Source: Haematococcus lacustris
Taxonomy: Eukaryota; Chlorophyta; Chlorophyceae; Chlamydomonadales; Haematococcaceae
Direction: 5' to 3'
DNA length: 64,000 nucleotides
Assembly: GCA_030144725.1 (NCBI GenBank)
Contig: JASKMD010000030.1
Location: 6,310,502 to 6,374,501 of the forward strand
Shown: positions 4,926-62,261 of the stretch, piece after piece
Layout: every line of letters starts with the position of its first letter
Position numbering within the stretch: position 1 is the stretch's first letter
Translations under genes and position numbers: made by a program
The notes under the pieces: generated by a model
What the model saw: the letters and a program-made list of their open reading frames with translations, nothing else
What the model was told of the DNA's origin: nothing
Database searches by the model: none

Positions 4926-4938
4926 CATTACTGTCACA

Positions 4939-6412
4939 TCAGGGCTGCTGCTGCTGGGCCATGGGTGGCTTGTCTCGCACCTGCTTGTAGCCCAGCCCTG
5001 GGTACTCCTTGCCCTTGGCTGGCAAAGCTGGCTGGTTTGGCCACCAGCACAGCTCCAGTGGGCGCCACATGCTCTCCCCAATACGCTGCATGTTCAATGC
5101 TGTATTTCACTCCCTGTCCAGCCACCTGCCTCGCCGTGGTGCTGGCTTTGCCTTGGCAGCCTTGCCCTGGGCCTTGTCTTTGCCCTTGGTGGGCTGGCTG
5201 GGCTGGCTGGGCTCAGCTAACGGCTCATCCTTGGCGCGCTTGCTGCGCTTGGCTGGCGGGGGAGTGCTGGGCCCTGGCTCTGAGGCTGCTGGCTGTGTGG
5301 CTGCTGGCTGTGTGGCTGCCTGGCTGCTGCATGGGGGCTGTGGGGGGCTTGCGGGGGGCCACTACTGGGCACCACATTATGCCCCACACAGGCTGGTCAC
5401 GCTGCTGGCTCCAGGCTGGGCGCAGCAGGCACAGGTCCACCTGCCCTGCTGGGGGCTTCCAGTCTGCACGCCTGGTGGCCCTGCGTTTGTTCAGCTGGCT
5501 CTCACAGGGCTGCTGGCCATTCACTGCTGAGCTGACCCGGCTGGTGCGGTGCTCATCCACTAGCACCACCCTGCCCCGCCGCTGGTCTGTGCCCCTGGGC
5601 CTGCACACCACCTTGCAGCAGGCACGCAACACCGCGTCAGCACCCCAGCCTCCCTCAGTACCAATGCCAGCGGCGCCAAAGAAGACCACCAGCTGCTTGG
5701 CATGGCATGGCGCCTCCGCCATGACCTCCAACTGCAGCCATGCGCACCACGCACACAGGGTGGCTGGCATGGTGGCACCAGGTTAGGCATGGCACAGTCA
5801 ACCACTCTTTCACTTCATGCCATCCCACCACTTTCAAATACACATTCCACCCACCCACCCACCCCCACCTTCTTGGGGTCCAGGTACACCTCCCACACCG
5901 CATCCCAGGTGACGAGGGTGACGTTGCCTTGCTTCAGGTTGGCCTCTAACGAGGTGCCGGCTGAGCTGGCTGCTGCCAGGTGCTGGAGGTTGGGCTTGTT
6001 CAGTGCCAGCCACTGCTGGGTGTCGCAACGGGAATTGTTCAGGCCACTGGCCTGCTTTGCTTGGCCCTTGGTCAGCCTCCACCGACGGAGCTGGTCTGCC
6101 ACCAGGCCTGACTGCCACACCCCTGATGCTGCACTGACTGCCTGGGTGACGCTGGGGTTGATGCCCACCCCAACCTGTGTAGCTGGGTCAAAAACAAACG
6201 CACGTGTCTCAGCTAGGGCCTTGCTGATGCGGGGGAGTCCCAGCACATGGGCCGCTGCTGCTGCTGCATTTATGGGCTGCCGCCAAGCAAAACCAGCACA
6301 TTAATGTCTTGATCAAGGAAGTATGCGACCCCGTACATACCTGGCGTCGCTGCGTTTTCCATTCCTCCCTCCGATCCTCTCGTTGCTTGGCGGTGTTCTT
6401 CCGCTTCTTTAG
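4939..6412 (-). pseudogene. Fanzor-like RNA-guided nuclease, copy A (broken)
   Basis: Fanzors are eukaryotic homologues of TnpB, a RuvC nuclease guided by an RNA from its own element. Reading leftward, the remnant of the basic N-terminus is KKRKNTAKQREDRR (about 6345-6400). Then come a RuvC-I segment GVGINPSVTQAV near 6150, an intron starting GTGGG with four GGGT units near 5870, and the segment [13 protein letters not shown]...[13 protein letters not shown]. The C-terminal RuvC-III region reads [18 protein letters not shown], followed by GKEYPGLGY. Lesions: the start ATG is replaced by AGG, the RuvC-I aspartate is changed to asparagine (near 6157), a frameshift follows the proline-rich linker, and a TGA sits inside RuvC-III (5107-5109). 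The family call rests on motif order; the individual copy is clearly dead. Confidence 0.72.
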
Positions 6413-6458
6413 AGGCCTAGTGCTACTGGTAGGCCCTCAGTGGTCCCTAGTGTCTTGA

Positions 6459-6484
6459 CTCAAATGGAGGCCCTAGTGAGGGAC
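6459..6484. repeat. Left terminal inverted repeat of Fanzor element (copy A)
   Basis: Read outward on the minus strand it begins GTCCCTCACTAGGGC and continues TCCATTTGAG. It matches, at 25 of 26 positions and in inverted orientation, the sequence at 32924-32949 beyond the 3' end of copy B. A second GGCCCCTCACTAGGGG sequence lies at about 6538-6553. Confidence 0.6.
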
Positions 6485-7097
6485 GAGGGGGGCTGGTAGA
6501 GCACCTCACAGCCCAGCGAGCACCAACAACCAAGGCAAAGGCCCCTCACTAGGGGTTCCGTTTTGTCTGCATGGAGTAAATCTTCCAACCACATGGCATG
6601 GACGCCTTGCACCTACATTACTGTGCTCCCAGGCAGAAGCCAGCAACTTATCATATGGCCATGCGGCCCACACTTCCCCCGAGATTCCTGCATGACACTG
6701 CACCTCACTGACGCACTGACATGGCTCCCCCCTCAGCATCACACAAGTGCTGCGTGTTCAACAGCAATGAAAGCAAGTGAGGGCGCATGCTGCAGCCCTG
6801 TAACAAGGGTCAAGTACAATGATCACAATACAGAAACAACTCCCCTGTTCAACTTGAATATGCGGATGCCTGTGGGCAGTCTCCCTAGACTACAGCCTGC
6901 ATGACTTGGCTGCACCCTTGATGACTACAAATCCCATTCCTGGTGGCACTACACAGGGCCCTGGCATGGCTGGCAGGATGCCTATTGCTGAAGCATAGAG
7001 GCTGGGGATGAGATGGTCCTTGAGCAGGTGTGTGACTTTGCTTCCATGCTTCTTGGCATGCCAGCCATGCCTGACTGTGACCTATTTGCTGCTACGC
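6485..7097. other. No gene recognised
   Basis: The left edge belongs to the Fanzor element terminus (see 6459-6484). The rest shows only short frames. The right side is presumably the 3' untranslated region of the minus-strand cyclase gene that ends at 7098. Confidence 0.4.
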
Positions 7098-10000
7098 TCA
7101 TGCACCAATGTCCGCCAGGAACGCAGTCTGCATCCAGCCCTTGCCCTTCACCTCCACTCCTTGTGTCTCCTGCCAGGCCTCATGGGGCAGATGAGACATG
7201 AAAGCCTGGCTGACGTGGATGCGGCCAACCTGGCCAGTGGACTCCATCCTGCAGTGCACAGCACCAAGGGGTATGCAGGCTGCAGCCTAGTGGAATGGTG
7301 TGTGGGTGTGGGTGTGAGTGTGTTTGCGGCCGTAAGGAGCAGTAGTAGGAGAGTGTGGGCCGCAAGCCAGTGGTGCCCGCTGCCAGGTCGCACCTGGACG
7401 CGGTGTTGACAGTGTCACCAAACAGGCAGAAGCGGGGCATGCGCCGCCCGACCACTCCGCTCATGACGGGGCCGCAGTGCAGGCCCACACGCATCCGTAC
7501 GGGCTCTCCCAGCGGGTTCGTCACACGCGAGGCAGTGCGCACCATGGCCTTGCCAAAGCTCAGCAGCTTCTGCGCGTGTGCTGGGTCATGGCCGCCCAGC
7601 GTGCCACCGTTCTGCGGATACTTAACTGTAGAACGCCGCTGGGCCGGCCGGGGTTTAGGTGTGCTCTCAAAGGCAGAGGGTCCACCAAGGAGCAGCTCTG
7701 GACTGCCTTGGTCAAGGCTGTCGTCAAGGCACGCCTGCGTCGACACAGGAGTGAGCTGGGCCCTAGGGGTAGCCCTGCGACAGGGCAGGGTGGGGTGCGT
7801 GTCTAGTGCTGGGACCTTGATACCCTCACCCAGGGGCAGCGCACCCCTTTGCCCACTCACCCTGGCAGCTAGACCGTTCTTACGGTTGCCACTAGTCCGC
7901 TCAGACCGGTCAAACAGGCCAGCACACACCATGTAGCAGTCCTGCGGCAACATGGAGACAGCTGTAGGTCTGCAGTGGCCATGCTGGCATGTGAGTTGCC
8001 AAATTGCCTGTTTGCACAAAATGTTTTACTATACCGGCAGACTGCTTGAGGCATGAGAGTGAAGTGGAGGAGTGACACTGGTATAAGCAGGTATGAGTTG
8101 GTAGCAGGTGTAAGCCTTGTGTCGTTATGCCTCCGAAGAAGCGGAAGAACACCGTTACGCAAAAGCCGCATCCGAAGAAACGCCCGCAATGGCAAGGTTT
8201 GTCGTGGTGTTCTCCACCCCAGCTGTGTGTGCTCCGCGCTGTGTGAGCACACATTGCTGCTGTTGGTGCCAGCGCGAGTGCTCGCTCGTCTTAAGGCAAG
8301 AAACGGCAGGATCGGAGGGAGGGGATGGAAGACGGAGCGGCGCCAGCAATGTACGGGGCTGCATACTCAGATATCCAACTTGTGTCTTATCCTTAACCAA
8401 GATATTAATGTGCTGATTTTGCTTGGCGGCAGCCCAAGATGCAGCAGCAGCAGTGGCCCATGTGCTGGGGCTCCCCCACTCCCCCGCATGAAGGTCCCGG
8501 GTGGCGCAGTGCTGTGTGGCTGCAAGAAGGAAGCGAAAGCTCATGGTGCACCTCCAGCTCAGGGTGGAAATCCACTCCCAGCTGCGGGTCATTGCCTCCC
8601 TGCCAAGAAGCTGGTGGTCTTCTTCGGTGCAGCTGGCATTGGCATTGGGGGAGGCTGGGGTGCTGACGCGGTGTTGCGCGTCTGCTGCAAGGTGGTGTGC
8701 AGGCCCAGGGGCGTAGGCCAGCGGCGGGGCAGGGTGGTGCTTGTGGATGAGCACCGCACTAGCAGGGCCAGCTCAGCAGTGCATGGCCGGCAGCCCTGTG
8801 AGAGCCAGCTGAACAAGCGCAGGGCCACCAGGCGTGCAGGCTGGAAGCCCCCAGCAGGGCAGGTGGACCTGTGCCTGCTGCGCCCAGCCTGGAGCCAGCA
8901 GCGTGACCAGCCTGTGTGGGGCATAATGTGGTGCCCAGTAGTGCCCCCCCGCAAGCCCCCCACAGCCCCCATGCAGCAGCCAGGCAGCCACACAGCCAGC
9001 AGCCACACAGCCAGCAGCCTCAGAGCCAGGGCCCAGCACTCCCCCGCCAGCTAAGCGCAGCAAGTGCACCAAGGCTGAGCCAGCAGCTGAGCCCAGCCAG
9101 CCCAGCCAGCCCACCAAGGGCAAAGACAAGGCCCAGGGCAAGGCTGCCAAGGCGAAGCCAGCACCACAGCCAGGCAGGTGGGTAGACAGGGACTGCAATG
9201 CAAACGCTGAACATGCAGCGTATTGGGGAGAGCATGTGGCGCCCACTGGAGCTGTGCTGGTGGCCAAACCAGCCAGCTTTGCCAGCCAAGGGCAAGGAGT
9301 ACCCAGGGCTGGGCTACAAGCAGGTGCGAGACAAGCCACCCATGGCCCAGCAGCAGCAGCCCTGATGTGACACAGTAATGTGTGCCTCCCTCCCTCTCTT
9401 GAGCTGTCATCAGCTTATAATTAGTGCATGTTTGTCATGATGATTCTAGACTATAGCCTTGATGTCCTGTGAATGGAGCCTCAGGGTCTGTGTTGTGCCA
9501 AACCCTCTCTGTCAACACCAAACTATACACCAAGAACCAGCAAGTGCTTTAGAAATAAACACTCACTCCAATGGTTTCCACTTTGTAGCAGTCCTGCAGC
9601 AGCACACACAGCAGCAAAGTGTGGCAAGTAATGGTAGACAAGGCAGCAGGTGGCGGCACAAAGAGCTGTAAGGTGTTGCGCTCAAACAGGCAGAGGTGTG
9701 GGCAGCATTGGTTGCCTTACATGGTCTTCCAGCAGGTCATCAAAGAGCGAGAAGATGTGGTTGAGGAACAGCATGACCTGCCCGGGGTGCAGCTGCTGGC
9801 TCATGGCGGTAAAATTCTGCAGGCAGGCAGGGCAGCAGGGCAGCTGAGCCAGCTGCAGCCAGCAGTAAGTACGCAGGCAGGCAGGGTAGGAGGGCCGTTG
9901 AGGCAGCTGCAGCCAGCAGCCCCGCAGGCACTGTGCAGGGTGCCGTGGAGGCTGGTAGCTGTGTGACTGCAGTGGAGGCTGCCTGTACTGCCTAAACCTG

Positions 10001-13000
10001 CCAGCAGCCGGCCCTACCTGGATGTCAGTGAAGAGGATGGAGACCTCCTCGTGCATGGTTGCCAGCTCCATCACGTCACGCCGGGTCAGCTGGGGCAGGC
10101 CGTCCAGGCTGAGGCGGTCCAGAGACAGTTTAGCTTCAAAGCCAGGCAGCTGAGCCTTTGCAGCTGTGCTGGTGGTGCAGTAGCTGGCCATGATGGGGCA
10201 GCGGCAGAGGTGGTCAAAAGCATCAGGCAGGTCTGGGATGTCTGCTCCAGCCTCTGCCCCTCCGGGAAGGGCAGTAGAACCTGGCATGCAGGATTCGTGC
10301 TGGCCATGCTCCACGACGGTAACATTGGACAAGGTCTTCTGCATGCTTGCTGGGTAGCAAAAGCACAACAAAAGACACAGCTTGGTGATAGGCGCAGTGA
10401 AAGGAGCATGCCCATGCACCCAGCTGACCTGTATGGACGAGGTCTTGCAGACAAGGAGTACCCACCTGACATTGTGTGAGGCCCACTTCCTCCTTGGGCA
10501 GGACTAGCCACGAAGGAGGTGGGAAGGGATACAGAAGCACCCAGCTGTGCCCCTTGCTGCTGCTGCTCAGGCGGAGGCTCTGCCCAGGAAGGCCTTGACA
10601 ACCGCTGCTGCATTGACAATTGGGCTTTGGCAGCCTGCATTGCGCTGTGCTTGCCATCAAAGTCCAAGAGCTTGCTGATGACCTGGTAAGGGGTGACATC
10701 GCGAGAGTGAGAGTCACACATCAGAGCATGTGTTTCATGCCGACATCTATCGCACCACCCTCGTAAGGGGGTGGGGGGTGGAAATTAGGTATTAGTGCCA
10801 AAATAGGTATTAGTATTGGTACCGACAGGTCAGATTACAGATCTCCAAGTTGTAGGGGAACTATGCGCTGGTAACCTGCAGCAGACTCCAAAGCTGATAA
10901 TCTTCAATGTGCAACGTCATTGCTGCACATTGTGCAGAATAGTGTCCTCAAAATAGCAGTCAGGGGGTGGTAGTTGCTGTGTGAGCATTCTTTGAGATCT
11001 ATGCCCTGTTGTCAACACCGTCTAAGCCTCGAAACCTTTTAGACCAACGATAGTGGGTTGCAGTGCAAAACATCAGGACCATCACGTGGTAGGGATATCT
11101 CGTTCGACACCATTACATGTCAGCCTGGCCTCAGGGCACTGCTGCTCAGGCGGCCAATACAGCTCCACAACTCAAAAGGTCATCAGTAGCAGTGCTATAT
11201 GCCAAATACCAGGTGCATGCAGAATTCAGCCACTTTCATTGCTTGCACATTGCTTGCACATTGCTTGCACATTGCTTGCTCAGAGGTGTTATTACAGTGC
11301 CATTGCAGTAGCCAAGGGCAAGGAATACCCAGAGCTGGGTTACAAGCGGCAGCGAGGCTGCCTACCCGAGGCCCAGCAGTAGCAGTGTGATCCCCCTTGG
11401 AGCTGCTACTAGCATGCTTCGGTGCATGCTCGTTATGCTCAATCTAGGCTACAGCTCTGTCGCAGGGGTCTGTAGGTGGAACGTGTCCCAGGACTGCGTC
11501 TATACTCTTACCTGGACAGGGGCCAAGATCCATTGAACTGCACCTGTCAGTACCTCTCCTTACCTGGTGTGGCAAGATCTGCTGCAGGAGCGCCTCCTGC
11601 TGCTCCTGCAGTGCTGCCACCTGCTGCTCAGCAAGCACAGCATCAGTCACGTCCACCTGCAGGGCATGACAGCCAATGGTTCAGCCACCTCACCCTATAC
11701 ACCATGCAGGCACAGCCGGTCTGAACCAAAGGAGTGCAGCAGCCAGCAGCAGGGCGGTGAGTCCGGTTCATCAATGGGTGGGCGGTGTGTCTGACTTGCC
11801 TGGGCCACGGTGTAATGGGTTGCCAGGGAGTGAGGGTCCCGCATGGCTGTGATGTGCACCTCAAAGAAGGCCTGCTGGCCGGCAGCCAGGTTCATCATCT
11901 GGCGCAGCCGCCAGTGCACCACTTCCAGGCGGACTCGGAAGCAATGACCAGTGACCACCTGGCTATGCATGTCCTCCAGCTCAGCCTGCAGCATACACAG
12001 GGTCCCAAGCCGTGGCTGCTAGCCCTGTCGAATTCTCAGCCAGAGCATTGTCAGCACCCGGCCTGAGCCTGGCAAGGGGTGGCAACACTGGCAGCACCAG
12101 TGTGATGTGGTGGCCAGCAGCACTAACAGCAGCACCTAAGCTTGGTGGCTGCTGGCAACGAAGCTGCAGAGGGTATCAGCCAGAGCCTTGCCAGCACCTG
12201 GTCTGACAGGCCTGCAACCACGGGCTGCAACCTTGTGATGGGGTGGTCAGCCAGGCTTGCAGCAGCTGGACTAACCTGGCGGCCAAAGAACAGCATGCCC
12301 AGGAAGTCCATTGGGCTACTGCCAGCATCGCTCTCCCCAGGAGGAATTAACAGATTGTACTTGGCACAACAGCCTGTGCATAAGGCAGCACACATCCGCT
12401 CCAGCTGCATTGCACAGTGCCCCACTAGGTTGTGCTCAAGGTTGTCCCTACGTCCCAGAGTACCTCAATGCTGCCCCCTTCCTCAATGCACGCAGAAAGG
12501 CAGGAAGAGCGTAGTATTTCTTCCTTTCTTCAGGATGCAGGCTTGCACATTATGTTATAAATCTAAAGCGGACTGCTGAAGGTGCCTTTACCCAGTCAAA
12601 TGTGGACTGGGACATGTGCCACAACCCTCCATCTCACCAATCGAGGCCATGCTGGCTGCATTCTGCCACAGGGGCTGGCCGGAGGTCGGGTCCACGATGG
12701 TCAAGCACGCTGGGGTGTACTTCACTGCCAGCAGGTTTAGCAAGCCCCAAGCCGAGGGAAGAGGATCACCCGCAGGGCAGGGTATGCCCTGGCGGACCAT
12801 GCCCCACCACCTCCTCCTCACTGGGACTGGCGGTGTCGGGATGTCACCTGGCACATGCATGGCATTGCAATGAGCATCTCCATGCCGCATAGCTGACCTC
12901 CACATGTATGGCATCATCCTCATGAGCACAATGCCACCCAATGCACTCATTCAAAATACAGCAGGACCTCTCGCTCAACAGCCCACTAGCTTGCTGGACC

Positions 13001-15089: not shown

Positions 15090-15780
15090 TCACTGTCAAG
15101 ACTCCGCACAGCATCCCATCATCGTCACACGGGCAACAAACCCTCTGTCAGCAAGCCTGCTGCAGGTAGTAGTAGTGGGGTGCCCAGGATGTGCTGCAGA
15201 CCTGCTGCAGGTGGTGGGGAGGCCCAGGGGCACGGCCAGGCAAGGGGGTATGCTGGTACTGGTGGATGGCTTCCGCCCCAGCCAGATCAGCTCAGCTGTG
15301 CATGTCCCCAGCCCTGGGAGCTGCACTTAGACCGCGGCCAGTCCAGGCCAGTGGGCTGGGATCCCCCAGAGGAGGAGGTGAACCAGTGGCTGCTGTAGCC
15401 GGCTTGAAGCCAGCGGCATGGCAAGACAGTGGAGGCCCTGATGTGCTGCCACCCGCACCACTCAGCAGCCCTGCAGGTCAAGACCTCACAGACGGCCTCA
15501 CACCCAGCGCTCTGCCAACCCCATCCACCCCCACAGCCAGGCAAGTAGCTGAACCGGGGCAGCAACTCAGCGCTGAACCTGCAGCGTATAGGCGCCTAAG
15601 GGTGTGGAGCGGCCCCTGGAGCTGTGCTACTGGCCTGGCCAGCCTCCATGGTGTACGAGACGAGCAGTGAGCCACTGAAGCACTGGCTGCGCAAGGTCTG
15701 AAAGGAGCAGCTCTTATGGAAGAAGCAGAGGCAGGCTCCAGCTGAAGCACGATACGAGCTAAGCTAGGCCCCTGCTGATC
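15090..15780 (+). pseudogene. Fanzor-like fragment, diverged
   Basis: The frame GTARQGGMLVLVDGFRPSQ, then ISSAV, corresponds to [19 protein letters not shown] of the other copies, but the conserved glutamate is glycine. The RuvC-III equivalent near 15555-15600 reads LNRGSNSALNLQRIG, so both aspartates are gone. An inverted copy of the first 250 bp lies at 40428-40700. This is a degenerate, catalytically dead remnant. Confidence 0.55.
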
Positions 15781-29828: not shown

Positions 29829-32692
29829 ATGGCTAAGAAGAAGCGGAAGGGCACCGCCAAGCAAAAGAAGGGCCCGGCAAAGAAACCGAAAGGTGCGTGA
29901 CCCTAGCCGACTGTGAGCTACGTGAGTTACGCGCTGTGTAATGAGCCGTCGTTCCTGTTAGTACCATCGCAGCATCTCGCTCGCCTCAAGGGAGACAACG
30001 ACAAGAGCGCCGGAACGGCTGGGAAACAAAGAGACGCCAGGTAAAAGGCCGCACCCGCTATGTGTGTCCCCGCACTGTTTGTGTCCCCGCATTAGTCTTT
30101 GCCTGTCAAAGTGGCATGTTAAAGTGTTGATTGTGCTTGGCCGCAGGTCATCAAGGTCCCGGGTGGGGCTGTGCTGCGCGGGTGCAAAAAGACGAAGCGC
30201 AAGCTACAGGCGCACCTCCAGCTGCAAGCTGAGGTGCACTCCCAGCTCCGCGTAATTGCCTCGCTCTTTGTGCACAGGATCTTCCTAACGTGCCTGGTGG
30301 GCTACCCCACCACGGGGCATGCCAGTGCAACTGATCCTCCAGCCGTGCAGCCCCCCCAAGCCCCTGATGCACCCCCCCAACCCCCACCCCACCCGCGTGC
30401 CCCTGCCCAGCCAGCCAACATGCAGTGGGACTGTGGGCCAGAGCCTGATCCAGAGCCTGATCCAGAGCCAGTACCTGAGCCTGAGCCAGAGGTAGAGCCT
30501 GAGCCTGAGCCAGAGCCTGAGCCAGTCACGCAGCCAGGGCTCGGTTGAACTGGAGCGGCGAGGAGGCTCAACTGTTCATCAGGAGGGCGTGTGCAAGCAG
30601 ATGGGCCTAACCAAGGAGACCAGGGCAGCCTTCACCTCAGAGCCAGCACTGAGCCACCTCTGGGCCAGGTGGTTCAACATGGGCAAGCTTCGCAACAAGG
30701 GGGAGAGTTTGAGAGGACAGACGGTGTCAGCGTGTGTGCGGCCAGCAGCAACAGCCCCCCAAGTGCAGCAGCAGCAGCGGCCCATGCAGTGGGACTCCCA
30801 TACAAAGGCAAGGCCCTAGATGAGGAGCGTTAGTTTGTGTTTATCCCAGCCACACAAATCGAAGTGGGCATTGACCCCGGCGTCACCCAGGCAGTCAGTG
30901 CAACCACAGACGTGTGGCAGTCAGGCCACCTGGTAGCAGACCAGTTGAACCGGTGGAAGCTAACCAAGGGCCAAGTGAAGCAGGTCAGTGGCCTTAACAA
31001 TGCCCGTCGCGACACCCAGCGGTGGCTGGCTCCAATCAAGCCCCACCTCCAGCACCTGGCAGCAGCAAGCTCAGCCGGTACCTCCCTGGAGGCCAACTTG
31101 AAGCACATCACCGTCACCCTGGCCACCTGGGACGCAGTGTGGGAGGTGTACCTGGATTTCAAGTGGGCATGGCAGCGGCTAAGGTCACGGAGCCCAGGGA
31201 CGGGCGCTGGAGCAGTTCTTGAAGAAGGTGAGGGTGGGTGGGTGGGTGGGTGGGTGGGTGGGTGGGTGGGTGGGTGGGTGGGTGGGTGGGTGGGTGGGTG
31301 GGTGGGTGGGTGGGTGGGTGGGTGGGTGGGTGGGTGGGTGGGTGGGTGGGTGGGTGGGTGGGTGGGTGGGTGGGTGGGTGGGTGGGTGGGTGGGTGGGTG
31401 GGTGGGTGGGTGGGTGGGTGGGTGGGTGGGTGGGTGGGTGGGTGGGTGGGTGGGTGGGTGGGTGGGTGGGTGGGTGGGTGGGTGGGTGGGTGGGTGGGTG
31501 GGTGGGTGGGTGGGTGGGTGGGTGGGTGGGTGGGTGGGTGGGTGGGTGGGTGGGTGGGTGGGTGGGTGGGTGGGTGGGTGGGTGGGTGGGTGGGTGGGTG
31601 GGTGGGTGGGTGGGTGGGTGGGTGGGTGGGTGGGTGGGTGGGTGGGTGGGTGGGTGGGTGGGTGGGTGGGTGGGTGGGTGGGTGGGTGGGTGGGTGGGTG
31701 GGTGGGTGGGTGGGTGGGTGGGTGGGTGGGTGGGTGGGTGGGTGGGTGGGTGGGTGGGTGGGTGGGTGGGTGGGTGGGTGGGTGGGTGGGTGGGTGGGTG
31801 GGTGGGTGGGTGGGTGGGTGGGTGGGTGGGAGGGAGGGAGGGAGAGTAAGGGACTAAGAGGTGGTGGGTTGGGCATGGAATGAAAGAGTAGTTGACTGTG
31901 CATGGCCCCACCATGTGTGTGCCTTGTATGCATGGCTGCAGTTGGAGGAGGACATGGCAGAGGCGTCCATGGAGTGCCATGGGCGTGCCAAGCAGCTGGT
32001 GGTCGTCTTTGGCGCAGCTAGCATTGGCACCAGGGGGAGGTGGGGTGCTGACGCGGTGTTGCGTGCCTGCTGCAAGGTGGTGTGCAGGCTCAGGGGCATA
32101 GACCACCTGCGGGGCATGGTGGTGCTTGCGGATGAGCACCGCACCACCCGGGTCAGCTCAGCAGTGAATGGCCAGCAACCCTGTGAGAGCCAGCTCAACA
32201 AGTGCAGGGCCACCAGGCGTGCAGGCTGGAAGCCCCCAGCAGGGCAGGTGGACCTCCACATATTGCGCCCAGCCTGGAGCCAGCAGCGTGACCAGCGTGT
32301 GCGGGGCCTGATGTACCCGGTAGTGCCCGGTAGTGGCCCCCCGCAAGCCCCCACAGGGCCCAAGCAGCAGCCAGGAAACCACACAGCCAGCAGCCTCAGA
32401 GCCAGGGCCGAGCACTCCCCATCCAGCCAAGCGCAGCAAGCGCACCAAGGCTGCCAAAGCCAAGCCAGCACCACAGCGAGGCAGGTGGCTGGACAGGGAG
32501 TGAACTACAGCATTGAACATGCAGCGCATTGGGGAGAGCAGGTGGCGCCCGCTGGAGCTGTGCTGGTGACCAGAGCAGGGGAAGCTGCCAGCCAAGGGCA
32601 AGGAGTACCCAGGCCTGGGCTACAAGCGGCTGCGAGACAAGCCACCCAAGGCCCAGCAGCAGGAGCAGCAGCAGCCTGCTATGCCAGAGTGA
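29829..32692 (+). pseudogene. Fanzor-like RNA-guided nuclease, copy B (most complete)
   Basis: Exon 1 (29829-29892) encodes MAKKKRKGTAKQKKGPAKK, a nuclear localisation signal. Exon 2 is 29973-30040 (RQRQERRNGWETKRRQ) and exon 3 starts at 30147 ([19 protein letters not shown]). A P/E-repeat linker follows, then GKLRNKGESLRGQTVSACV near 30680-30740. RuvC-I is IEVGIDPGVTQAV (about 30855-30895) with its aspartate intact. A GGGT-filled intron (31228-31940) precedes QLVVVFGAASIG and ADEHRTTRVSSAV. RuvC-III is [20 protein letters not shown]; the end is [20 protein letters not shown]. Lesions: a TGA at 30546-30548 with a frameshift after the linker, TAG at 30831-30833, a frameshift near 31195, a frameshift in the second linker, TGA at 32501-32503, and a later TGA. 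In Fanzors the RuvC-II glutamate is replaced by an alternative one; the E of DEHRT is my candidate. Confidence 0.75.
31232..31830. repeat. (GGGT)n microsatellite, about 150 units
   Basis: Uninterrupted GGGT units for about 600 bp, ending in four GGGA units. It lies just inside the intron of Fanzor copy B, directly after the donor site. The plus strand could form G-quadruplexes. Confidence 0.97.
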
Positions 32693-32700
32693 TGTGTGCC

Positions 32701-32830
32701 CCATATCTTGAGCTGTCATCAGCTTGCATCAGTGCATGTTTTTCATGCCAACTCTACACCATAGCCCTCGCGGTCAGGCAATAGTTTAGGTGGTAGGCAC
32801 TCATGCACCATGTCCATGTGCATTGGGTAT
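32701..32830 (+). ncRNA. Conserved Fanzor 3' end, candidate guide-RNA scaffold
   Basis: GAGCTGTCATCAGCTT, CATGCCAACTCTACA and GGTCAGGCAATAGTTTAGG match copies near 4.8, 34.9 and 62.3 kb. The central hairpin is partly lost here (CCCTCGCGGT). Its role as a guide RNA is inference. Confidence 0.4.
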
Positions 32831-32923
32831 ACTCCACTAACACCACTTGAGTCGGGCGACTATTGCCCACTAGTGGTCCCTAGTATTCCCACTAGTGGCC
32901 ACTAGTGGTCCGTAGTGGTCCGG

Positions 32924-32949
32924 CTCAAATGGAAGCCCTAGTGAGGGAC
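32924..32949. repeat. Right terminal inverted repeat of Fanzor element (copy B)
   Basis: CTCAAATGGAAGCCCTAGTG plus AGGGAC is the inverse of the left end of copy A at 6459-6484. The 70 bp before it carry several ACTAGTGG/GTAGTGGTCC units, like subterminal transposase-binding arrays. Confidence 0.6.
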
Positions 32950-33478
32950 AACAGGGGTGCTCACCCATCCTGCCCCCACCAGGCAGCAGCCGGCAGCATA
33001 GGAGCAGCAGCTGCCGTGCCAGAGATGACTACCAGCTTGCCATTTAAGTGCAAAGCGAGCGCCGGGATCTTGGCACAACCTGCATTGCAACGTGGACAGG
33101 GAACCAGTATTGGGTCTTCATCACCAAGAGCACAAGCATCGCCTACCATCAGGGATCGACATCAGGAATAGTCTTTGCTATCAGTTGGGACCGGCTACTA
33201 GTAAGACAGCAGCACGGGAACCATGTTGCAGCATAATAACCACATTCTTATACCCCACACATAGACAAGGACAAGCAGCCATAGCCTGGCTAAAGATCGT
33301 GATGGGTTTTAGACCATAAACACATCAGGTATAGGCTAGACCGTATAGCTTGTCGAATTCAAGCATTACAAAATCTGTGACCCCGCCAGCTTCACTGACT
33401 GCTGTCGACTGCTAGGGTCAAGATTGGGAAGGTAAGGAACAATCTTACAAGTGTGCATTGCCCCATGTGTCCATCCAG

Positions 33479-33861
33479 GTGGATGCGGCCAGTGTACAGC
33501 TCGGCGAAGCGTTCCCAAGTCAGGGGCTTGATGTGCTCAACAAGCAACAACATCAGGTAAGCACTGGCCTGGTACTGCACATGTGCATGGCCGCAACATA
33601 TCCCACATGAAGTGACACATGACATGGCACATGACTTGACTTCATGCATCTCCAACATCCATGTGCAGGTTCTATGACCGGGACGTCTCAGCCGCGCTAA
33701 GCATCCGCCGCTGTGCAGTCGGCCCAGGCCCACGCCCTACTGAACTGTGCTACTGGGATGGCCGCCCAGCCTTGCCAAAGCCATGCCAGCCAGGCCAGGA
33801 GTGGGTGTACTTGCGTGACAAGGCCCTGCTGCGTAAGTGGCGGCGCAAGTGGCGGCGATAG
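33479..33861 (+). pseudogene. Fanzor-like C-terminal exons, second lineage
   Basis: Two exons in phase: 33479-33556 (ending RSQVRGLMCSTSNNIR) and 33669-33861 (FYDRDVSAALSIRRCA ... YLRDKALLRKWRRKWRR, stop). DRDVSAALSI is a classic TnpB/Fanzor RuvC-III motif with both aspartates, and VRGLMC precedes it as in zinc-finger regions of the family. The C-terminus is strongly basic. These exons are open and spliceable, but no upstream exons are recognisable, so I call it a fragment. Confidence 0.6.
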
Positions 33862-34202
33862 CCAGCTACAGCAATACAACCCAAGAAAATAAGATACCAA
33901 ACCCCTCACAAAGGGGATGTGTGTGAGTAAGAGCTATAGAGTAGGGTAGAGCTCTTGCTAGTAGTAGACCTGGAGGCACACACACCAGAAGGCTGAGCTG
34001 GAGTGGGCATTAGGCACATTGTCAGTAGCCTTTACAATAGCGATCTCGCAGCCTGTGTTTGATTACAACTCATGCTTTATTTTGGTGTTGCATGAGGGCT
34101 GTAGAAACGGAGAGCACTAATCGGTATGACGCGGGTGACTTGATTGGAGTGTCACGCTGTTCTCACCACCCTTGGTTTTCAAGGGGACGACCGCTGATTG
34201 AC

Positions 34203-34975
34203 ATGTCCGCTTGCTCAGCGCTTGAGCAGCAAGTCAGCGAATGGCAGCAGCGTATCAAGGCAATGGAGGGTGTACGCAATGCGGAAGTGGATGAGGAAGC
34301 GAAGACATTGGCACACCAGCGGCAGCAAATTGAACTACTCCGCAAGGAGAATGCCAGGTTGCAAGAAGAGCTTGGCCAGGGCCCACAGGTGCTGGGTACC
34401 CCTTTCTATCTATCTCACAACAGGCTATCTTTGCTGCAGCCCTGTTACATGTAAAGCACGCTGTGGTGCAGGCCATGGGATCAGCACAGCAGGAGAGGAT
34501 TGATAAGCTGCAAGACCTAATTGAGACATACAACCGTAAGGTACTCTCCACTGGGTATGAAGGCATGCCTACCGGCTTCCCATGCGCAACCTTCACCTCA
34601 GGATCGCTGCCTTGCGCCATAGATTGAAGTAGAGAGCCGGCAGGTGGAAGCCCTGAACCAGGAACTGGAGGTCACGCAAGCCAAGGTGACGCTGCACTGC
34701 TTTTAATGCTGTGCACTATAGCAACAATACAAGCTGGAGGGTGACAGTTAGGTAGAAGTCAGGACCAAACCTTGGATGATTGACGATGTCAGTCCCTTGT
34801 CCCTCACCAGGGCGTACATTAGACGGGCTTACATATTCCCATGCACATGGCAGGGGCGCCTTCCACCTATACTATTGCCTGACCCCTGTGACAGGGCTAT
34901 AGTCTGGAGTTGGCATGACGGACATGCGCTGTAAGCTAATGACGGCTTAAGTGGGGACACACACTACTGTGCCAC

Positions 34976-35060
<85 letters not shown>

Positions 35061-37951
35061 GCCTTAGGTGGCTGGTCTCGCAGCCGCTTGTAGCCCAGGT
35101 CAGGGTACTCCTTGCCCTTGGCTGGCAGCTTACTTGTCCAGGTCTAGCCACCACCACCACCACCATAGAGGATGCGAGTCCAAGGGCTCAATGATGTGAA
35201 AGGAATGCTACAGACATGGGAAAGCATAACACAGCACAACATCTGCTGGGTCCCCTGGCCTAGGCCATGGCGTTTGCAGCCTCTAGAGCTCGCATTGCTT
35301 GTGCAGGACATCCGCATTTGCAGCATACTGCTCATCGATGTGCTCAGAGCAGCATAATAGACATCAGGGGCACAGCCTGGTCCTGGGCCTTGCCTGTATT
35401 GCCTCAGCTTACCCAAGCCACTTGCCAGGCCACTGTGCCTAGTGGTCTATGATTTGCTCTGGCACCGCCATACCACAGGGCCATGGCTCAGGTTCATAGC
35501 ATGAGACAAAGCCACCGCCCCCTTCCTGGGGTCTTGAGGCTTAAGCTGGGCTCGCCACATCCCTGCTGATGCACCTGGCTGATGCATGAGCCTAAGGCGC
35601 CCCGCACCAATCCCTGCCTCCTGGTGTGCTGCTGAGCAGCTGCTGGCCCTGCATTCTGCCCCATGGGTTTGTAGCCATGGAGAGGAGGGATCCACACTTC
35701 AGGCAGGCAGCTGAGGCTGACTTGACCATCTCAGGTGCAGCTCAGATGCCTCCTGTACCAGATCTGTCAACTCCCACACCCTGATGGGCAGTAAGGCATA
35801 GATGCTTTGTCATGCTGGTGTTGGTCAAATATGGGCAGGGGCAACGTATTCCTGCCAAGAAGGAAGGGGTTATCCCAGCTCCGCTGTCAGCCCCCTGCAC
35901 AGGAGCCACCCCTGCGCCCTGACCTCAGGTGCTTGACCTGCGCCGGCTCACAGGCGGACCCCAGTCAGCTGTGGAGGCATCCCGTCAGGCTCTGAAGACG
36001 CGGCAGCTGCTAGAGAACAGGCTAGAGCAGGTTCGTTGAGAAGGCTGCAAACAAACTGTTGTGGTGGAGGAGCAGTGTTGCAGCAGAAGGGGATGGGGCA
36101 GGGCGGATAGGGATGAAGCTGTCAGAGCAGATCGAGGCAGTGTGGAGAAGATGGGTATAGGCTGTGTGACCGTGACACTTTTGCATCTAGTTGCTGGCAT
36201 GAGGTGATGCCTTGTGAGGGCAGCATGCAATGCATGGGAAGGCCCGAGCATGACCAGCTTGGCAGTCAGCTTGAGCCCGGGCACACATCAGTGCACTGAG
36301 CAATGGCAGCATCACAGGCACTTTGCCCTCGGCATGCATTGGAAGCTGTGCCTTGGAGTGCGTACCAGTGTGGGGACTGTGTGCCATGATGCCCTTAGAT
36401 GGAGAGGCGTTTCTGTGAGACACTGGCCAAGAACAACGAGCTACGGGCGGAGATTGAGTCGCACAACAAGGACAGAGAGGCATTCGAGCAGGTAAGGGCA
36501 AGTGCACTGAACATTAACCAAGGTGGCTGAGTGGGTCTGCCACCCTTATGACGCCACCGTCGTCATGTCGCCCGCGATACCCTTAACGAGCAGCGTCCCA
36601 GGGAAGACCACTATGAGTATGGGTTGATGTAGGTTGCTGCCACCTCTCTGCCGCAGCTCTGCCAGCGCCTGGAGCGCGACATCGCGTCTCGCCAGGCCGA
36701 GCTAGATACCGTGCGCGCAGCCATCGCAATCGCCGACGAGGCGCGTGTCAGCGCCCGTCGTAGCGCCACAGCGCTGCAAGTCGCCAACCAGCGAGAGGCT
36801 GGGGCAGCCGAGGAAGTGCTGAAGTCTCTAGCTGACTGCCAAGGCGCCGACAAGCAGCTGCTGCTGGTAGGCCTCAATGGTGCTTCCATGCAAATGCCAC
36901 TGCTTGACAGCCAGGTTATATAGCTGTTATGCTGCCTTCCTCTTTCTGCTTCTCCTTGCAGGTCACGAGTAGAGGGTCACTGCACTGCCAAGCGTGCGAT
37001 AAACCTCACCTTGTCCTGAGCCTGTTTGAGTTGATGCTGCAGGGTGTAGAGGCTGTGGTGTCGACCTCCTCCTGCTCTACAGGCCCAAGCCCAGCGGCTA
37101 GAAGCCATGACTGCTGCAGGCGGTGCCGACTCTTCACCTACAGCCTTTCAGCTGCCCAGTGCAGCCCAGTGTGAGCTGCTCATCAGCCAGCTGCTGGCCA
37201 TCACTGGCATTGGGGATCAACACTTGCGGCAGCCCAAGACGTCCAACTGCAAAAATCACACCTCCAGTGAACCGCTGCAGCAGCTGGTAGCATACTGCTG
37301 CCGCTTGGAAGCCCAGAACTTTGAGGTCTTCTCCAGCTGCAACCAGGCCAATGAGAAGCTGGGCGCCCTGCAACAAGAGCTTGAGCAATTGCAGGTAGGC
37401 CAGGCCAGCAAGCACCCAGGGGCTGTGGAGGGCTGCATGGCTGCACAGTAGGCTGCTGCATGGTGGCTGCATGGTGAGTTGGCAGGAGCAACGGGGTGCT
37501 GCCAACTGCGTCCGGACCTGGAGGCTGCGTCCATGCATTCCAACCACACCCCATGCTGCACCCCCTGGTGCCCACGCTGCTGATCTTCGGCGGTGCTGCA
37601 TAGGCTGAAGCTGCTGCAGCTGAGGCCCAGGGAGCGCTGGCCCAGCAGAAGGAGGTCATCCAGGCCACACTGGCCAAGAGAGACGCAGCCTGCAAGTGAG
37701 TGGAAGCTAGGCGTGCCCAAGCATGCCATGCATCAAGTCTCCTAGGAAAACACCCCCCATGGACTGTGGACATCCTGCACCAGGCACTGCCGCTGCTGCT
37801 GTGCTTGCCAGGCTGGGGACTGCAAGCAGTGCTGTGAGGATGGCAGCAAGTGGCGTCCATGCAGGGTAGCCACTGCTGCTCCTGCCGCTGCCACTGCTGA
37901 TGGCCAGGACCTGCTGCATGGCTCCATCACTGCTGCTGCACAACTTGTCCT

Positions 37952-40700: not shown

Positions 40701-42689
40701 TCGGGACTTTCTGCAACGCACGCCAGAGCTAGTTGCCCCAAGAAAGGAGCCCTTGTCTCGAAGTATAACGGCTAATAGGAGGACAACGTGCAATGCATGT
40801 GGACTTGTGCGTTACACGAAGGCATGCTCTTCAACACTACTTTTGTCGTTGTTTTGGCCTCTCCCTAATGGATTTTGTGACAGTGCACTCAAGGATGAAG
40901 TGCATGGCATCATCCACTGCGCCCCTCTGTTCATCTGGTGTATATATGGTCAATAAAAGTCACCCCACACATTGGGCCTTCTCCATCCCTTGATGCTGGC
41001 TTACACCGCTTAAGCCGTCAGTCGTTAGGCTGCTTGGCCGCCCTCCCCCTCTAGGGGTTCGGGACTTTCTGCAAAGCACTTAAATGCAAGATCGTCACTC
41101 ATACATGGATAAAGTATGTATTTCTGTATCTTACAATGCATCGGGCCAGGCCTGTTCATGAGGTTTAGGCATGCAGATATGCAATCTTTCAAGCATGCAG
41201 CCATGCAAGGCACAAGGCCTAGCATACACATGGGTACTTGGCATAAGGGCAGTGGACAGCTCCTCTTGTGCCCTGCTCCTCCCCCTCCCTCTCCTCCCCC
41301 TCTGCTTCTTGGCCTCGTGCAGATTACTGCACCCTTGGCAGCACATTGCAGTAGCCTTTAGTTAAGCTAGGCCAGCTTGTCAGCAGTGCCTGGCACCTAG
41401 CACAAGTAATGGGTGGGCTGCTCAGGCAAACAAAACTCATTCAACATGGAACAACATGTTAAGCTGTGGGTAATCTTACTCAGTTACTCCAGTCAAGTTG
41501 AAGCATCCTCGGTCGCACCCTTGATGACTACAAGCCCCACACCGGTGGCACTCTCTCCCCGTAGACCACTGGGTACCTCATCAAAACCAATAACTCAATG
41601 CTTTGTAAGGCTGCAGTGCGGGGGGAGGTGCGTGTGGGAAGGCAGGGGTGAGTATAGGGAGGGCATGCTGGGTCAGGTGGGGGGAGGGGGGCCTGGGGCT
41701 GGACCTACTGCTAGGAAGCCTTGACTGGGCTGGCCTAGGAAGGAATGGAGCAGCATTGGCAGGCACAGGCATGCTGTCAGGACGCACTGCTTGCTGCCCA
41801 TGGTCATGCGCTTGTTGATCTCCGCCACAACTGCGTCAACTTGAGCTGGGCTGAGATCAGGCCGGCCGGTCTCCACAGGGCCATGGCCAACTACCTCCTT
41901 GGCGGAAGTGATGTCATTACAAAATATACCTCCAACAAATCAGGGCACTGCATCAGGCCCCGTTCTCCTTTGCCATAACATTTGCTCCATTCTGGGTGCG
42001 TCAGCCTGCTTGGCTACTAGGCCCTATGGTCCACCTGCCTTGCTAGGGGCAGCCAATCCCAAAGCCGGGGTGGGCTGCTCAGGTTGATGGCCACTGGCCA
42101 GCCTTGCATTGGCCTGATGGCTGCCAGTTTCACTGTCGGGCGGTGTTGATTATCATCAGGGCTGCACTGGCTTCCAGCCTGCGGGATGGTTTGCCTGGGT
42201 CAGGGCAACAGGCTGGCGGGCACTGATGTCCAGGGGCAGGGGCTGGGTGCCGCGTAGGTCCAGGGAGCTGCTCAGGCGGTCAGCACACACCCTCATACGT
42301 GCATGGATCATGGCCTGCATGGCCCAAGCCGTGCAGCAAAGGCAGCAAACAGAAGCAATGGCATAGGTAGGCATGACTGCAAGGTGGAGGGCAAGAGGGC
42401 AAGAAAGGGAACACCGGCATCCACATGTGACTGGTGTTCACATGTCGTGCAGATCATGAACAGACTTTTGCAATCCATGCAGCGCTTGCCTGGATGGATG
42501 CAGGGAGCTTCAGAAACTTACACTCAATTGTTTGCAACAAACAACGCGAAACTAGTCACAGTCACAATGAACGGCTGTGACGCTGCAAGTACATCATGTG
42601 TGAATGTCCTGTTCTTGTGTTTCAATGCAGTAGAGACATCACCACTACCATCATGGCTGCTCGGCTGTGGCAAAGCAGCAGTGCCTTAC
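40701..42689. other. Repeat-rich stretch, probable 3' part of ARPC2
   Basis: It holds a copy of the dispersed 190-bp repeat (41428-41615, plus) and the inverted copy of the 14.1-kb repeat (42060-42390). A minus-strand frame at 41673-41876 (GRPDLSPAQVDAVVAEINKR) looks coding but is unrecognised. The last exon of ARPC2 should lie here; near 42450-42500 there is an acceptor-like CCATCCAG, but I cannot fix the exon. Confidence 0.4.
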
Positions 42690-50443: not shown

Positions 50444-53400
50444 TTATGGGTCCGCAGGCGCTGTGGCAGCAGTCTCCCCTGCAGTAGCCCCCCTCGACCT
50501 CTGGCGCTTAGAAGACCGCCCCTCCTCTCCTTCCGGCCCATTTGGTGCTACTGACTGCATGGCCTGCCTGGCAGCAGCATAGCTGGCCCACGACTGGGTG
50601 ACCCACTGCCCTTCTGCTGCTGCTGCCGCTCCCCCAGCCACATCACCATTGCCGTTGCTGGCACCATCACCTCCAGAGGTCGCAGTGGCAATGGCTATTG
50701 CCGCTTGGGCTGCCGCCGCCGCAGCGTCCACATCAGTGAGGGGGCGGGAGGGGAGCACAGGGAGCACTGCTGGCTGGGTCACAGGCGCCGCGACGGCTGG
50801 TGGACCCCCTGCGCCTGTTGGCCCCTCACTGTCCACCACCATGCTGCCAGTCCCGCTTGGCTGCGCTGCGGCAGCTGGGTCGGCGGGATGGTCACTTGAG
50901 GGGGCGGTGGGAGGAGGGGTGCCGTCTGCCTGGCCCTCAGTGGCTGAGGAAATGTCGGCGGCCGCGGCGGCCGCGGCGGCAGCATCAGCGGCGGCGGCGG
51001 CAGCGGGCACGTCACACTCCACCAAGTAGCCCCCTATGGACTGGGGCCCCGCTGCAGCAGCAGCAGCAGCAATAAGAGGACAAATGGAGCGGCAGCAGTG
51101 AAGGAGCGGTGCATCTGCAGCAACAGCCTGGCCAACAGCAGCAGCGGCAGCAGCAGCAGCAGCAGCTGCCTGGCCAACATCATCACGAACATCAGCAGCA
51201 GCACATGCGCCGCACAGACCAGAGTGGCTGAGATGGGTGGTGGACCCTGACCAGGAGGCGATTTGCTGCCATCAACCACATGGACAAGATGGACACCATG
51301 GAGCCATGCATCCACCTGCACAGCCTGCAGCCGCCTGACCTGCCCTTCAGGCTGGTCACCAAACCCACCTGGGGGCAGGGCGGTGACGCGGGGCCTGCCT
51401 GCCACGCCCATGCTCTGCAGCTTGCGCACAATGTCCATGCAGCGCATGCCAGGAGCGGGCCCATGCAGGTGAAGCACATGGGGGCGCAGCAGCAGGAGGT
51501 CTGGCCCCCCCAGCGCGATGAAGGGCATGTCAGAGCGAGACTGCAGCCATGGCCAGGCATACACATGGGGCTGAGCAAGGCTAGCACAGCCCATGCAGCA
51601 GCAAGGTTGAGAATAGATGAGTCAGCCAAGCACACCAAGGGCACCACGGTTGAGAAGGCAGCTGAGCCCATCCAGCCCACCAATAGCAAAGGCAAAGGCA
51701 AGGGTCAGTCTGTCACGCCAGAGTCAGCCAAGCACACCAAGGGCACCAAGGGCTGAGCAGGCGGCTGAGCTTGTCTAGCCTGCCAAGGGCAAAGGCAAAG
51801 GCAAGGGCAAAGCTGTTCGTCCCAGCCCACTGGCATTCCAGGCAGGTAGGTAGACAGGGACTGCAATGCAGCGCTAAACATGCAGCGTAGTGGGGAGAGC
51901 AGGTGGTGCCCGCTGGAGCAGCGCTGGTGGCCAGACCTGCAAGCTCAGCCAGCCAAGGGCAACCTGTACCCAGGCCTGGGCTACAAGTGGCTGCGAGACT
52001 GCCACAGGGGTCAGGCAACAGTTGAGGTGGACACTCCATACAGACAAATCACCGCCCCTAGTGAGGGGACCTGATCATGCCTTTGCAGTGGTACTTTTTG
52101 CCCGCTGGGCTGATGATGGGTTGCTCCTCAGCGACTCACAATGTTGAGCCTGTTTGCAAACGGCGACAGCCACTCCAACAGTTGGGGTTGCGGTGACGAC
52201 AGTGGCTGGGCCAGGTCTTGAATAGGCCCCACTGGGACCACCTGGCCAGGTGCTGACCCCTCACCCGGCTGACTGGCTGCTGTGCCCTCTGTGGGCTTTG
52301 AGGCCTCCGAGCCTGCCTGCTGCTCCTGAGGGGGAGGCTGCTGCTGCTGCTGCTGCTGCTGGTCTTGTGCAACGATGGGTTGTGGGCGGGGCGGGGGGCC
52401 GAGGGTGGCGCGAGCCAGGCCCCCCAGGAAGGCGTACACTGCGCCTGTCATGTACGCGTCATACCTGTGACACAACACGAAGCGTCACACCTGACACAAT
52501 GTGTGACCGTGGCCACAGCGCATGCTTACGACACAACGTACCCAGCTTCGTGAGCAGCAGCCCCGGCGGCAACATTTTCGTACTTGGAGCAGTGGGGATG
52601 GTGCTTGATGGTAGGCAGGCCCAAGCCTAGCTGCTGCTGCATAAGCTGGGCTGCTGCAGGGCGGGCAGATCCTCCTGTGTGCAGTCATGCAAGGCAGGGC
52701 AGCACAGGGAGTGCCTTTGCTAGGTGTGGCATGGTGGTTGGGCTGGTGCTGGTGCTGCTGGCGCTGAGTCTGCAGCAACGCCATGTTTGGCACATGCCAT
52801 GACTTGATCAGATGCATCAGGTTGTGCAACAGGGCATGGATTGGGGTCAGCTTTCAATGGGCTGCACTGACACATGGCAAGAAGGGAGGTGTTGTGGCTC
52901 TCTTATGTTGTTGCCTGTGTGTGTTGCACACCAGTCAACGCACACAGCAAGGACCAGGACTGCAGCGGTACAGGGCATGGAGTTAGGCCCCTGCGGGTAA
53001 AGTCATAAGAGGGGCGGCCCTCCTTGGTGCTGCACCCCCCAGCACTGTCACAGGAGCCTGGCATTGCGGCTGGCTCTGTAAGGAGGTGCCCTGAGGGCCC
53101 TGAATCCAGCAGGGCTGCAACCAACAAGCAATGCCAGCAAAGAAGCGATGACGACAACACGTGGTAGCTTTCATGAGCAGCGGTGGGTCCATGGAACCGG
53201 TTGGGAGCAGCATGGTGAATTTTGAACTTTTGAATTGTTTGAATTGTAGTGGGTCGGGCACAGGGCGTGAGCAGTATTGGTACGCACCTTCAGCCACCAG
53301 CTCCTGGTACAGCTGGCCCAGCCCAGTGCCCTCAGGGCGGAGGGATGCGGGGAGCTGGTAGGCGATGTGCTTGGTGTCATACAAGCCAGCAGGGAACCAG

Positions 53401-61960: not shown

Positions 61961-62261
61961 CTCACAGATAATGGCACGACAGGGCTAGTGGCCCGAGGCG
62001 GCGGAGCTTGTAAGGTATGGCTTCACCGCCGGTGGGCTGCGGAAAGACATCGATGAAGTGCTTGGCGGAGGACCTTTCTTGGCCTGGGGTATCGCTATGG
62101 GCTGCATGACCAGCCGGCCAAGAAATATCTTTTCTTGCGTAGCCTGCTGTTGGGTGGCCCTAGATAAGCCGTGCGAGCCGTTCCACCTCTGCACTCAGAC
62201 GATACAAGTGGCAAGGGGGCAGACGAGCGTGGTGGTTGTTTCTGCCGGGCAAGGCCGTGTG

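Follow-up and report, generated by a model that had tools for sequence, protein, structure and literature searches.

Our analysis of a 64,000-nucleotide stretch of the green alga Haematococcus lacustris (contig JASKMD010000030.1, positions 6,310,502 to 6,374,501; hereafter the window) indicates that it holds about ten loci derived from Fanzor, the eukaryotic TnpB, most of them C-terminal fragments. We think it likely that these loci are the decayed remains of a mobile element of high copy number, which would encode a Fanzor1-type RuvC nuclease without a zinc ribbon and would have moved in a Helitron2-like manner. This reading draws on a profile match to both Fanzor1 proteins of known structure, on the many long copies elsewhere in the genome that retain the catalytic D-E-D residues with a ratio of nonsynonymous to synonymous substitution rates (dN/dS) below 1, and on the way copies end: at a fixed 3' boundary, in part of them with target duplications of 11-17 bp that begin with CTG. 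The genome searched comprises 307.9 Mb in 597 contigs, in which the window is C176:6310502-6374501.

Fanzor copies in the window

A tblastn search with eight family queries gave 113 high-scoring segment pairs (HSPs) in the window against 0 in the reversed window (both masked), and the matches are therefore not due to chance. The masked matches fall into 12 clusters, two of which are the separate halves of a single copy and another of which is marginal (55736-55828, E 7e-4); the unmasked search adds a single weak locus (41942-42151) amid low-complexity false matches. The original prediction had described a swarm of at least a dozen segments sharing four motifs in order. The multiplicity stands, at about ten loci, but at least three of the four motifs occur in only three of them (4942-6441 minus, about 8110-9362 plus and 29829-32956 plus), and the RuvC-III string DRDCNAALNM, predicted for the segments in this form or in variants, occurs exactly just once in the window, at 51853. 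The most complete copy has the following parts.

29829..32957, plus: whole copy, subfamily A, broken (translation and tblastn; 3' terminus placed from 48 genomic copies)
29829..29897, plus: first exon with basic, nuclear-localisation-like start MAKKKRKGTAKQKKGPAKKPKG (translation)
30144..31184, plus: middle part including RuvC-I, with IDPGVTQAV from 30870 (tblastn to residues 38-379 of protein P0023)
31232..31842, plus: (GGGT)x153 array of 611 bp, where other copies have an intron (residue about 395)
31939..32319, plus: exon bearing KQLVVVFGAASIG and ADEHRTTRVSSAVNG; has the alternative glutamate, lacks the zinc-ribbon cysteines
32324..32689, plus: C-terminal part in another frame, with CPVV, a linker containing PAKRSKRTK, broken RuvC-III and tail
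32690..32957, plus: 3' non-coding region with terminus GTGAGGGACAACAGGGG (blastn to genomic 3' end, 74% over 250 bp)

All four motifs named in the original prediction for 29829-32949 (+) are found there in order: MAKKKRK from 29829, IDPGVTQAV, the glutamate motif as ADEHRTT (DEHRTT from 32131), and RuvC-III with a stop. Translated in the three plus frames, the basic start reads MAKKKRKGTAKQKK, and the same first-exon start is present in several genomic copies. The copy is broken, as had been noted, by two stops and one frame change: a stop codon immediately ahead of FVFIPATQ, a shift of frame near 32320, and a stop within RuvC-III (DRE*TTALNM, about 32490-32520), whose RD motif is broken in this copy. 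The end point given earlier, 32949, lies near the real 3' terminus of the element at about 32957; the junction there reads AGGGG|TGCTC, with no recognisable target duplication. The (GGGT) array is probably an expanded intron microsatellite, because it occupies the place of a short intron in other copies.

Relation to Fanzor1

By computed homology the family is related to Fanzor1, in agreement with the earlier assignment to Fanzor. A core profile of six proteins (types A, C, D and E), searched against 177,635 PDB sequences, ranked SpuFz1 of Spizellomyces punctatus (8gkh) first at E=0.006 and GtFz1 of Guillardia theta (9cer) second at E=0.025, the third match (E 0.7) being unrelated; the core had been trimmed after a mixed alignment had shown the location of the match, so that this search was not blind. 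The mixed alignment itself, of 44 rows, placed GtFz1 sixth (E=0.55), behind chance matches to SSO1/SSO2 and CopG. The SpuFz1 match spans from ahead of RuvC-I to RuvC-III, that to GtFz1 mainly the part up to RuvC-I. In the alignment DEYKTSSVCPRC of SpuFz1 stands opposite algal DEFRTSRVSSAV, glutamate on glutamate.

Sorting 338 fetched proteins by motif strings gave five subfamilies, whose labels A-E are our own. Subfamily A, the main type in the window, carries DEHRT[ST]RVSSAVNG; B carries DEFRTSRVSSILNSPQP; C carries DEFRTSRVSSSVHARQP together with DRDTN[PG]CLN; D carries DPGKTNMATV, DEFRTSRVSSADNTPSE or SSAYSHPSE, and DRDVSAALNI; and E carries CDPGKTNMATV and HEFRTSRVSSAR. In BLASTP the D protein P0223 matched E types at a best E value of 0, C (P0182) at 7e-41, B (P0128) at 5e-30, and the A proteins P0012, P0023 and P0022 at 5e-36, 2e-30 and 2e-28. 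Among the 63 proteins with one full motif set, 60 have DPG at RuvC-I and all 63 have RD at RuvC-III. The alternative glutamate lies six residues ahead of the zinc-ribbon position, DE[HF]RTSRV-SSA aligning to DEYKTSSV-CPRC of SpuFz1; DPG with the alternative glutamate is the signature described for Fanzor (PMC10711439). Subfamily E (P0273, P0278, P0285, P0296) is peculiar in having, unlike A-D, a C ahead of DPG and an H ahead of the alternative glutamate (CDPGKTN/CDPGNTN, VHEFRTS).

A comparison with TnpB profiles, which had been proposed as a check, came out mostly weak with the Pfam TNB model PF07282 and in some cases empty. When five proteins were compared with it, the type A proteins P0023 and P0012 scored E=0.077 and E=0.031 and P0014 gave no match, whereas two chimeric proteins, both with type B pieces, barely passed the curated cut-off of 26.3 bits (P0007 at 26.5 and P0097 at 27.6). 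In a larger set 18 of 44 members matched at E<=0.1 (best 2e-4), and the whole H. lacustris genome gave 0 matches to the same model. Scans of single proteins with Pfam, PHROGs and NCBIfam gave nothing decisive.

Relatives were H. lacustris proteins only among the best 120 of 940, 325 and 288 matches in three protein searches, and the best 120 of the 940 are annotated as hypothetical or uncharacterized. A viral contig scan returned 12 pattern matches and no relatives. Public H. lacustris gene models fuse Fanzor fragments to other domains, such as SLX9 in P0182 and PF00106 in P0132, with further cases in P0136 and P0145; these and other fused models are either gene-model errors or exon capture.

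Loss of the zinc ribbon

Judged from the protein sequences, each of the five subfamilies seen has lost the C4 zinc ribbon. No CxxC occurs in the 14 residues from any DExxT-type motif among the 338 proteins, the HEFRT motif of type E having been examined by eye in 4 proteins. The zinc position is occupied by SSAV, SSIL, SSAM, SSAD, SSAY, SSSV, SSAR or a few odd variants, and the second cysteine pair is cut to one cysteine in common forms (GLMWCPVV, GLMCSTS). Since all 30 of the best-scoring type A genomic loci read SSAVN or SSAVD while keeping D-E-D, the loss is family-wide rather than decay of single copies, and it accounts for the poor scores against PF07282 (TNB). The arrangement D-X-[TS][TS]XX-[C4 zinc finger]-X-RD is described as strictly conserved in Fanzor/TnpB (PMC3627910), and many Fanzor/TnpB are reported to carry the zinc finger (PMC10711439). 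Because this defining feature is absent, we file the family as a zinc-ribbon-less variant related to Fanzor1 and not as a standard member. A Fanzor lineage that reaches very high copy number without its zinc ribbon would suggest that a eukaryotic RNA-guided nuclease can do without this domain.

Copies elsewhere in the genome

Searching the genome with P0023 gave at least 68 scored loci (41,742 first-look candidates), some of them near-duplicates (pairs on C49 and on C387/C536). By our row count 47 of the 68 are free of stops in the two listed stretches, frames and N-terminal exons not having been checked throughout. As copies less damaged than those of the window are found elsewhere, there is no need for the consensus that was to be merged from broken copies. 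Each of the 68 loci gives a pair of matches adjoining near residue 395 (in a few the second match starts further on), usually with an intron of about 100-170 bp between them, and no match extends across this point. In the 30 loci that were fetched this intron is kept 30 times, with 0 spliced copies by an HSP-length criterion.

The three catalytic residues, D274, E459 and D588 in P0023 numbering, are kept in all 30 of these best loci. Pairwise dN/dS, from a Nei-Gojobori count over 27 of the 30 loci (three near-duplicates dropped; 351 non-independent pairs), is 0.50 for residues 72-235, 0.25 for 256-395, 0.47 for 396-520, 0.36 for the linker (521-584) and, lowest of all, 0.19 for the RuvC-III/C-terminal part (585-632).

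For the genome as a whole, 47.3% repeats and 50.8% transposable elements have been reported (PMC7617258, PMC10400597). In the text available of these two H. lacustris genome papers the word Fanzor does not occur, and a literature search for Fanzor together with Haematococcus led to work on Auxenochlorella only.

A fixed 3' end and short target duplications

Homology between copies ends sharply about 330 bp past the KGKEYP codons, right after GGCCCTAGTGAGGGACAAGGGGG, at one common 3' end, ...GAGGGACAAGGGGG|, whereas the 5' ends are ragged and break at many places. A search with the last 236 bp gave 1839 first-look candidates, of which the 40 scored are 97-100% identical; in the 20 of these that were fetched, the shortest copies measure about 350 bp and the longest exceed 2.7 kb, running past the stretch examined. 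Of the 40 most similar ends (97-100% identical), half, 20, come from a single 5.18 Mb contig, C100, which is 1.7% of the genome, an unexplained local amplification in a search whose query came from the same contig, a possible bias.

Termini were read in 48 of 50 loci, L015 and L016 being left out for want of a 3' end; the 48 are not 48 independent insertions, as L012/L013, L021/L027 and L024/L025 have common flanks. The triplet directly after the 3' end is CTG in 46 of the 48 and TTG in 2. The loci L031-L050 were found with a query ending in the CT of the flank and may favour CTG, but the 28 loci from the protein search are free of this bias and read CTG 26 times and TTG twice. Exact target duplications of at least 10 bp counted from the YTG occur in 14 of 48 copies (lengths 11-17) against 5 of 2256 exchanged pairs, and those of at least 12 bp in 12 of 48 against 3 of 2256. 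Upstream of the 5' duplication copy the bases are G at -2 (12 of 13) and G at -1 (10 of 13). An earlier test based on blast breakpoints, with long matches in 2 of 12 copies, is superseded by these anchored tests.

The 3' region

The 3' region contains an 11 bp terminal stem, TTTGAGCCGGA...TCCGGCTCAAA, both arms of which are found in 22 of the 30 loci. In these 22 the pairing is full in 9, has one wobble in 10 and is imperfect in 3, and 5 of the 9 fully paired copies carry a double-sided G-C to T-A change (TTTTAGCCGGA...TCCGGCTAAAA). The stem is followed by a small hairpin, CCCT-AGTG-AGGG, invariant in 13 aligned copies; that alignment covers the 13 of 30 loci that lie in plus orientation. The conserved region may be an omega RNA gene, a Helitron-type terminal hairpin, or both, and the algal nuclease is presumably RNA-guided.

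Remaining features of the window

Besides the main copy, the window contains the following pieces of the family.

4942..6441, minus: second copy, subfamily A, with PLKKRK, degenerate RuvC-I INPSVT, VDEHRTS, DRE*NTALNM and KGKEYP; 3' non-coding match at 4926-4814
6459..6492, plus: isolated 3' terminus GTGAGGGACGAGGGGGG, CTG directly after
8110..9458, plus: third copy, subfamily A, with MPPKKRK, VDEHRTS, and DRDCNA in another frame; RuvC-I not found in it
11287..11394, plus: C-terminal fragment (translation, tblastn)
15144..15642, plus: middle/C-terminal fragment, heavily decayed (tblastn)
33408..33873, plus: subfamily D fragment (tblastn to P0230, 81% over 57 aa, E 1e-24)
34794..35131, minus: C-terminal fragment with its own 3' end GTGAGGGACAAGGGA, then CTG
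41942..42151, minus: weak middle fragment, doubtful (E 8e-6 unmasked; absent from masked tblastn)
51619..51999, plus: fragment bearing the exact DRDCNAALNM
56954..57525, plus: decayed C-terminal half and beginning of 3' region
61583..62008, minus: subfamily C fragment DRDTNGCLNLQRIGES (tblastn to a piece of P0182, 78% over 49 aa)
62261..62346, plus: isolated piece of 3' non-coding region

The second and third copies are inverted-repeat partners (4932-5705 and 8598-9372; 605 bp at 94% and 165 bp at 100%), and from this near-perfect pairing one copy probably arose from the other. CTG follows the window termini near 6492 (+) and 34794 (-). Two window termini were tested for a target duplication, and none was found. 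Rfam at its gathering threshold and ARAGORN gave no match in the window.

The window also holds pure arrays of (GCCCA)x160 at 48434-49232 and (GCCCCT)x26 at 46438-46596. A separate repeat family occupies 13785-14415, 41424-42408 and 61390-61578, in which 189 nt occur three times, identity to the reference copy being 70% and 89%, and 314 nt form an inverted pair (96%). Open frames at 7180-8019 (-) and 9682-10419 (-) have stretches that we take to be nucleotide-cyclase-like, and those at 25502-26555 (+) presumably resemble threonyl-tRNA synthetase.

Discussion

How could so many copies with one end in common have arisen? No transposase domain was found in the proteins scanned, and so the element probably moved in trans. 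We propose that its transposition would begin with the 3' end, at (G)G|CTG sites, and that it most likely follows a one-ended rolling-circle mode resembling that of Helitron2, such as has been proposed for the Chlamydomonas elements CRe-1/2/3. The hairpin-bearing 3' region would then be a guide-RNA (omega RNA) gene whose guide is the flank from CTG onwards. Known systems take their guide from the flank past the right end of the element and have the target-adjacent motif past the left end (see PMC10711439). Here an empty site would read ...GG-CTGNNN, for which GG is the predicted target-adjacent motif and CTGNNN the predicted guide. Each copy could in this way guide the nuclease to the unfilled version of its own site, and repair of the break from the filled site would retain the element. 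A fixed 3' end together with duplications beginning in CTG thus leads to exact predictions of guide and target-adjacent motif, which bear on the mobilisation of Fanzors in eukaryotes. Moreover, since H. lacustris is reported to be diploid (PMC7617258), filled and empty alleles may be compared in this species.

Several observations weigh against the proposal as a whole. Canonical Helitrons end in CTRR and the end of this element differs. Of the Helitron2-type traits, 5' truncation with an intact 3' end and variable target duplications is found, but insertion after TTTT or another T-rich tetranucleotide is not, the upstream bases being mostly GG. No duplication of at least 10 bp accompanies 34 of the 48 termini; many copies have their 5' end beyond the stretch examined, but several (for instance L002, L006, L034 and L035) have a visible 5' break and yet no duplication. 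Three of the eight loci outside the 22 with both stem arms (L003, L013 and L014) have a replaced or missing 3' arm, and the 3' region shows a slightly unfavourable covariation term (+0.73), with a double change in only 3 of 59 pairs. On the protein side, the best-domain i-Evalues are modest (0.055 for SpuFz1, 0.21 for GtFz1), and the predicted structure of family A, at a mean predicted local distance difference test score (pLDDT) of 35, is unusable as fold evidence. Finally, the 30 loci on which the catalytic residues were scored are the best-scoring ones and hence biased to intact copies, and a dN/dS below 1 could come from selection acting on source copies alone.

The same Fanzor gene could instead have travelled as a non-autonomous follower of a long interspersed nuclear element (LINE), with target-primed reverse transcription starting from the 3' end on a GG|CTG nick and leaving both 5' truncation and duplications, which we regard as possible although clearly less probable. 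Truncation at the 5' side, a fixed 3' end and duplications of 11-17 bp are what one would expect of such a follower, and the fixed YTG at the 3' junction might pair with the end of the RNA. However, neither a poly(A) nor a simple-repeat tail was found in 26 aligned 3' ends, the residue-395 intron is present in 30 of 30 loci with no match across it, and processed copies were not found. Moreover CRe-1/2/3 are described as showing the same signs while sharing ends with true Helitrons (PMC3627910). Because introns are retained and the tail is lacking, we favour Helitron2-like mobilisation in trans and place target-primed reverse transcription second, as less probable.

We consider it unlikely that the family is a Fanzor-derived DNA- or RNA-binding protein which no longer cuts because its zinc ribbon (TNB) is gone, the copies being mere passengers. 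In the subfamilies seen the first zinc pair has indeed lost its two cysteines and the second pair one of them, and in Fanzor1 the TNB and RuvC domains are reported to hold the first RNA stem loop (PMC11423790). On the other hand, the 30 best loci without exception retain the three catalytic residues, and dN/dS is lowest, at 0.19, just in the RuvC-III/C-terminal part.

That the family is no Fanzor at all but an unrelated repeat protein with chance RuvC-like motifs is most improbable: the Pfam TNB scores mostly lie under the cut-off, the structure model is poor, and PDB searches with the family-A alignment (0 matches) and with one chimeric protein (a single, unrelated match) gave nothing relevant, but the ranking of SpuFz1 and GtFz1, both Fanzor1, at the top of the core-profile search strongly disfavours it, as does a SpuFz1 match that runs from ahead of RuvC-I to RuvC-III.

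One may go further and imagine a dispersed guide library, in which every 3' end, nuclease-less truncated copies included, would encode an omega RNA guided by its own CTGNNN flank beside GG, and intact zinc-ribbon-less Fanzors acting in trans would cut empty alleles and convert them to filled ones. We put this forward only as a speculation that is doubtful at present; if true, it would make even solo 3' ends self-driving.

Green algae are reported to carry Fanzors sporadically (PMC12633428), and in Auxenochlorella, compared here by its description, the most abundant repeat likewise encodes a Fanzor, which is uncharacterised there (PMC12633428). Compared with SpuFz1 and GtFz1, the algal family shares the order TDG-V-S, DP(G/N)K, DE-(Y/F/H)-(R/K)-TS and RD..N; it has SSAV-like residues where SpuFz1 has CPRC, and one Cys where SpuFz1 has its second Cys pair, and subfamily A has an extra linker of about 65 aa with a basic stretch ahead of RuvC-III (P0023). 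The closest parallel in mode of spread is with CRe-1, CRe-2 and CRe-3, Fanzor1 elements of Chlamydomonas reinhardtii that have been read as products of one-ended Helitron2 transposition (Bao and Jurka 2013, PMC3627910). As in Haematococcus, these are green-alga Fanzor1 genes with introns, in 5'-truncated copies with intact 3' ends, and their target duplications, 7-19 bp, resemble the 11-17 bp found here (PMC3627910). They differ in being inserted after TTTT rather than at GG|CTG and, as far as the description goes, in a strictly conserved zinc finger (PMC3627910), which Haematococcus has lost. The ghost Spu-1 elements offer a further likeness, many copies having the element ends without the nuclease gene (Saito et al. 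2023, PMC10432273); ghost Spu-1 elements have inverted repeats at both ends (PMC10432273), whereas the end common to copies of the Haematococcus element is the 3' one.

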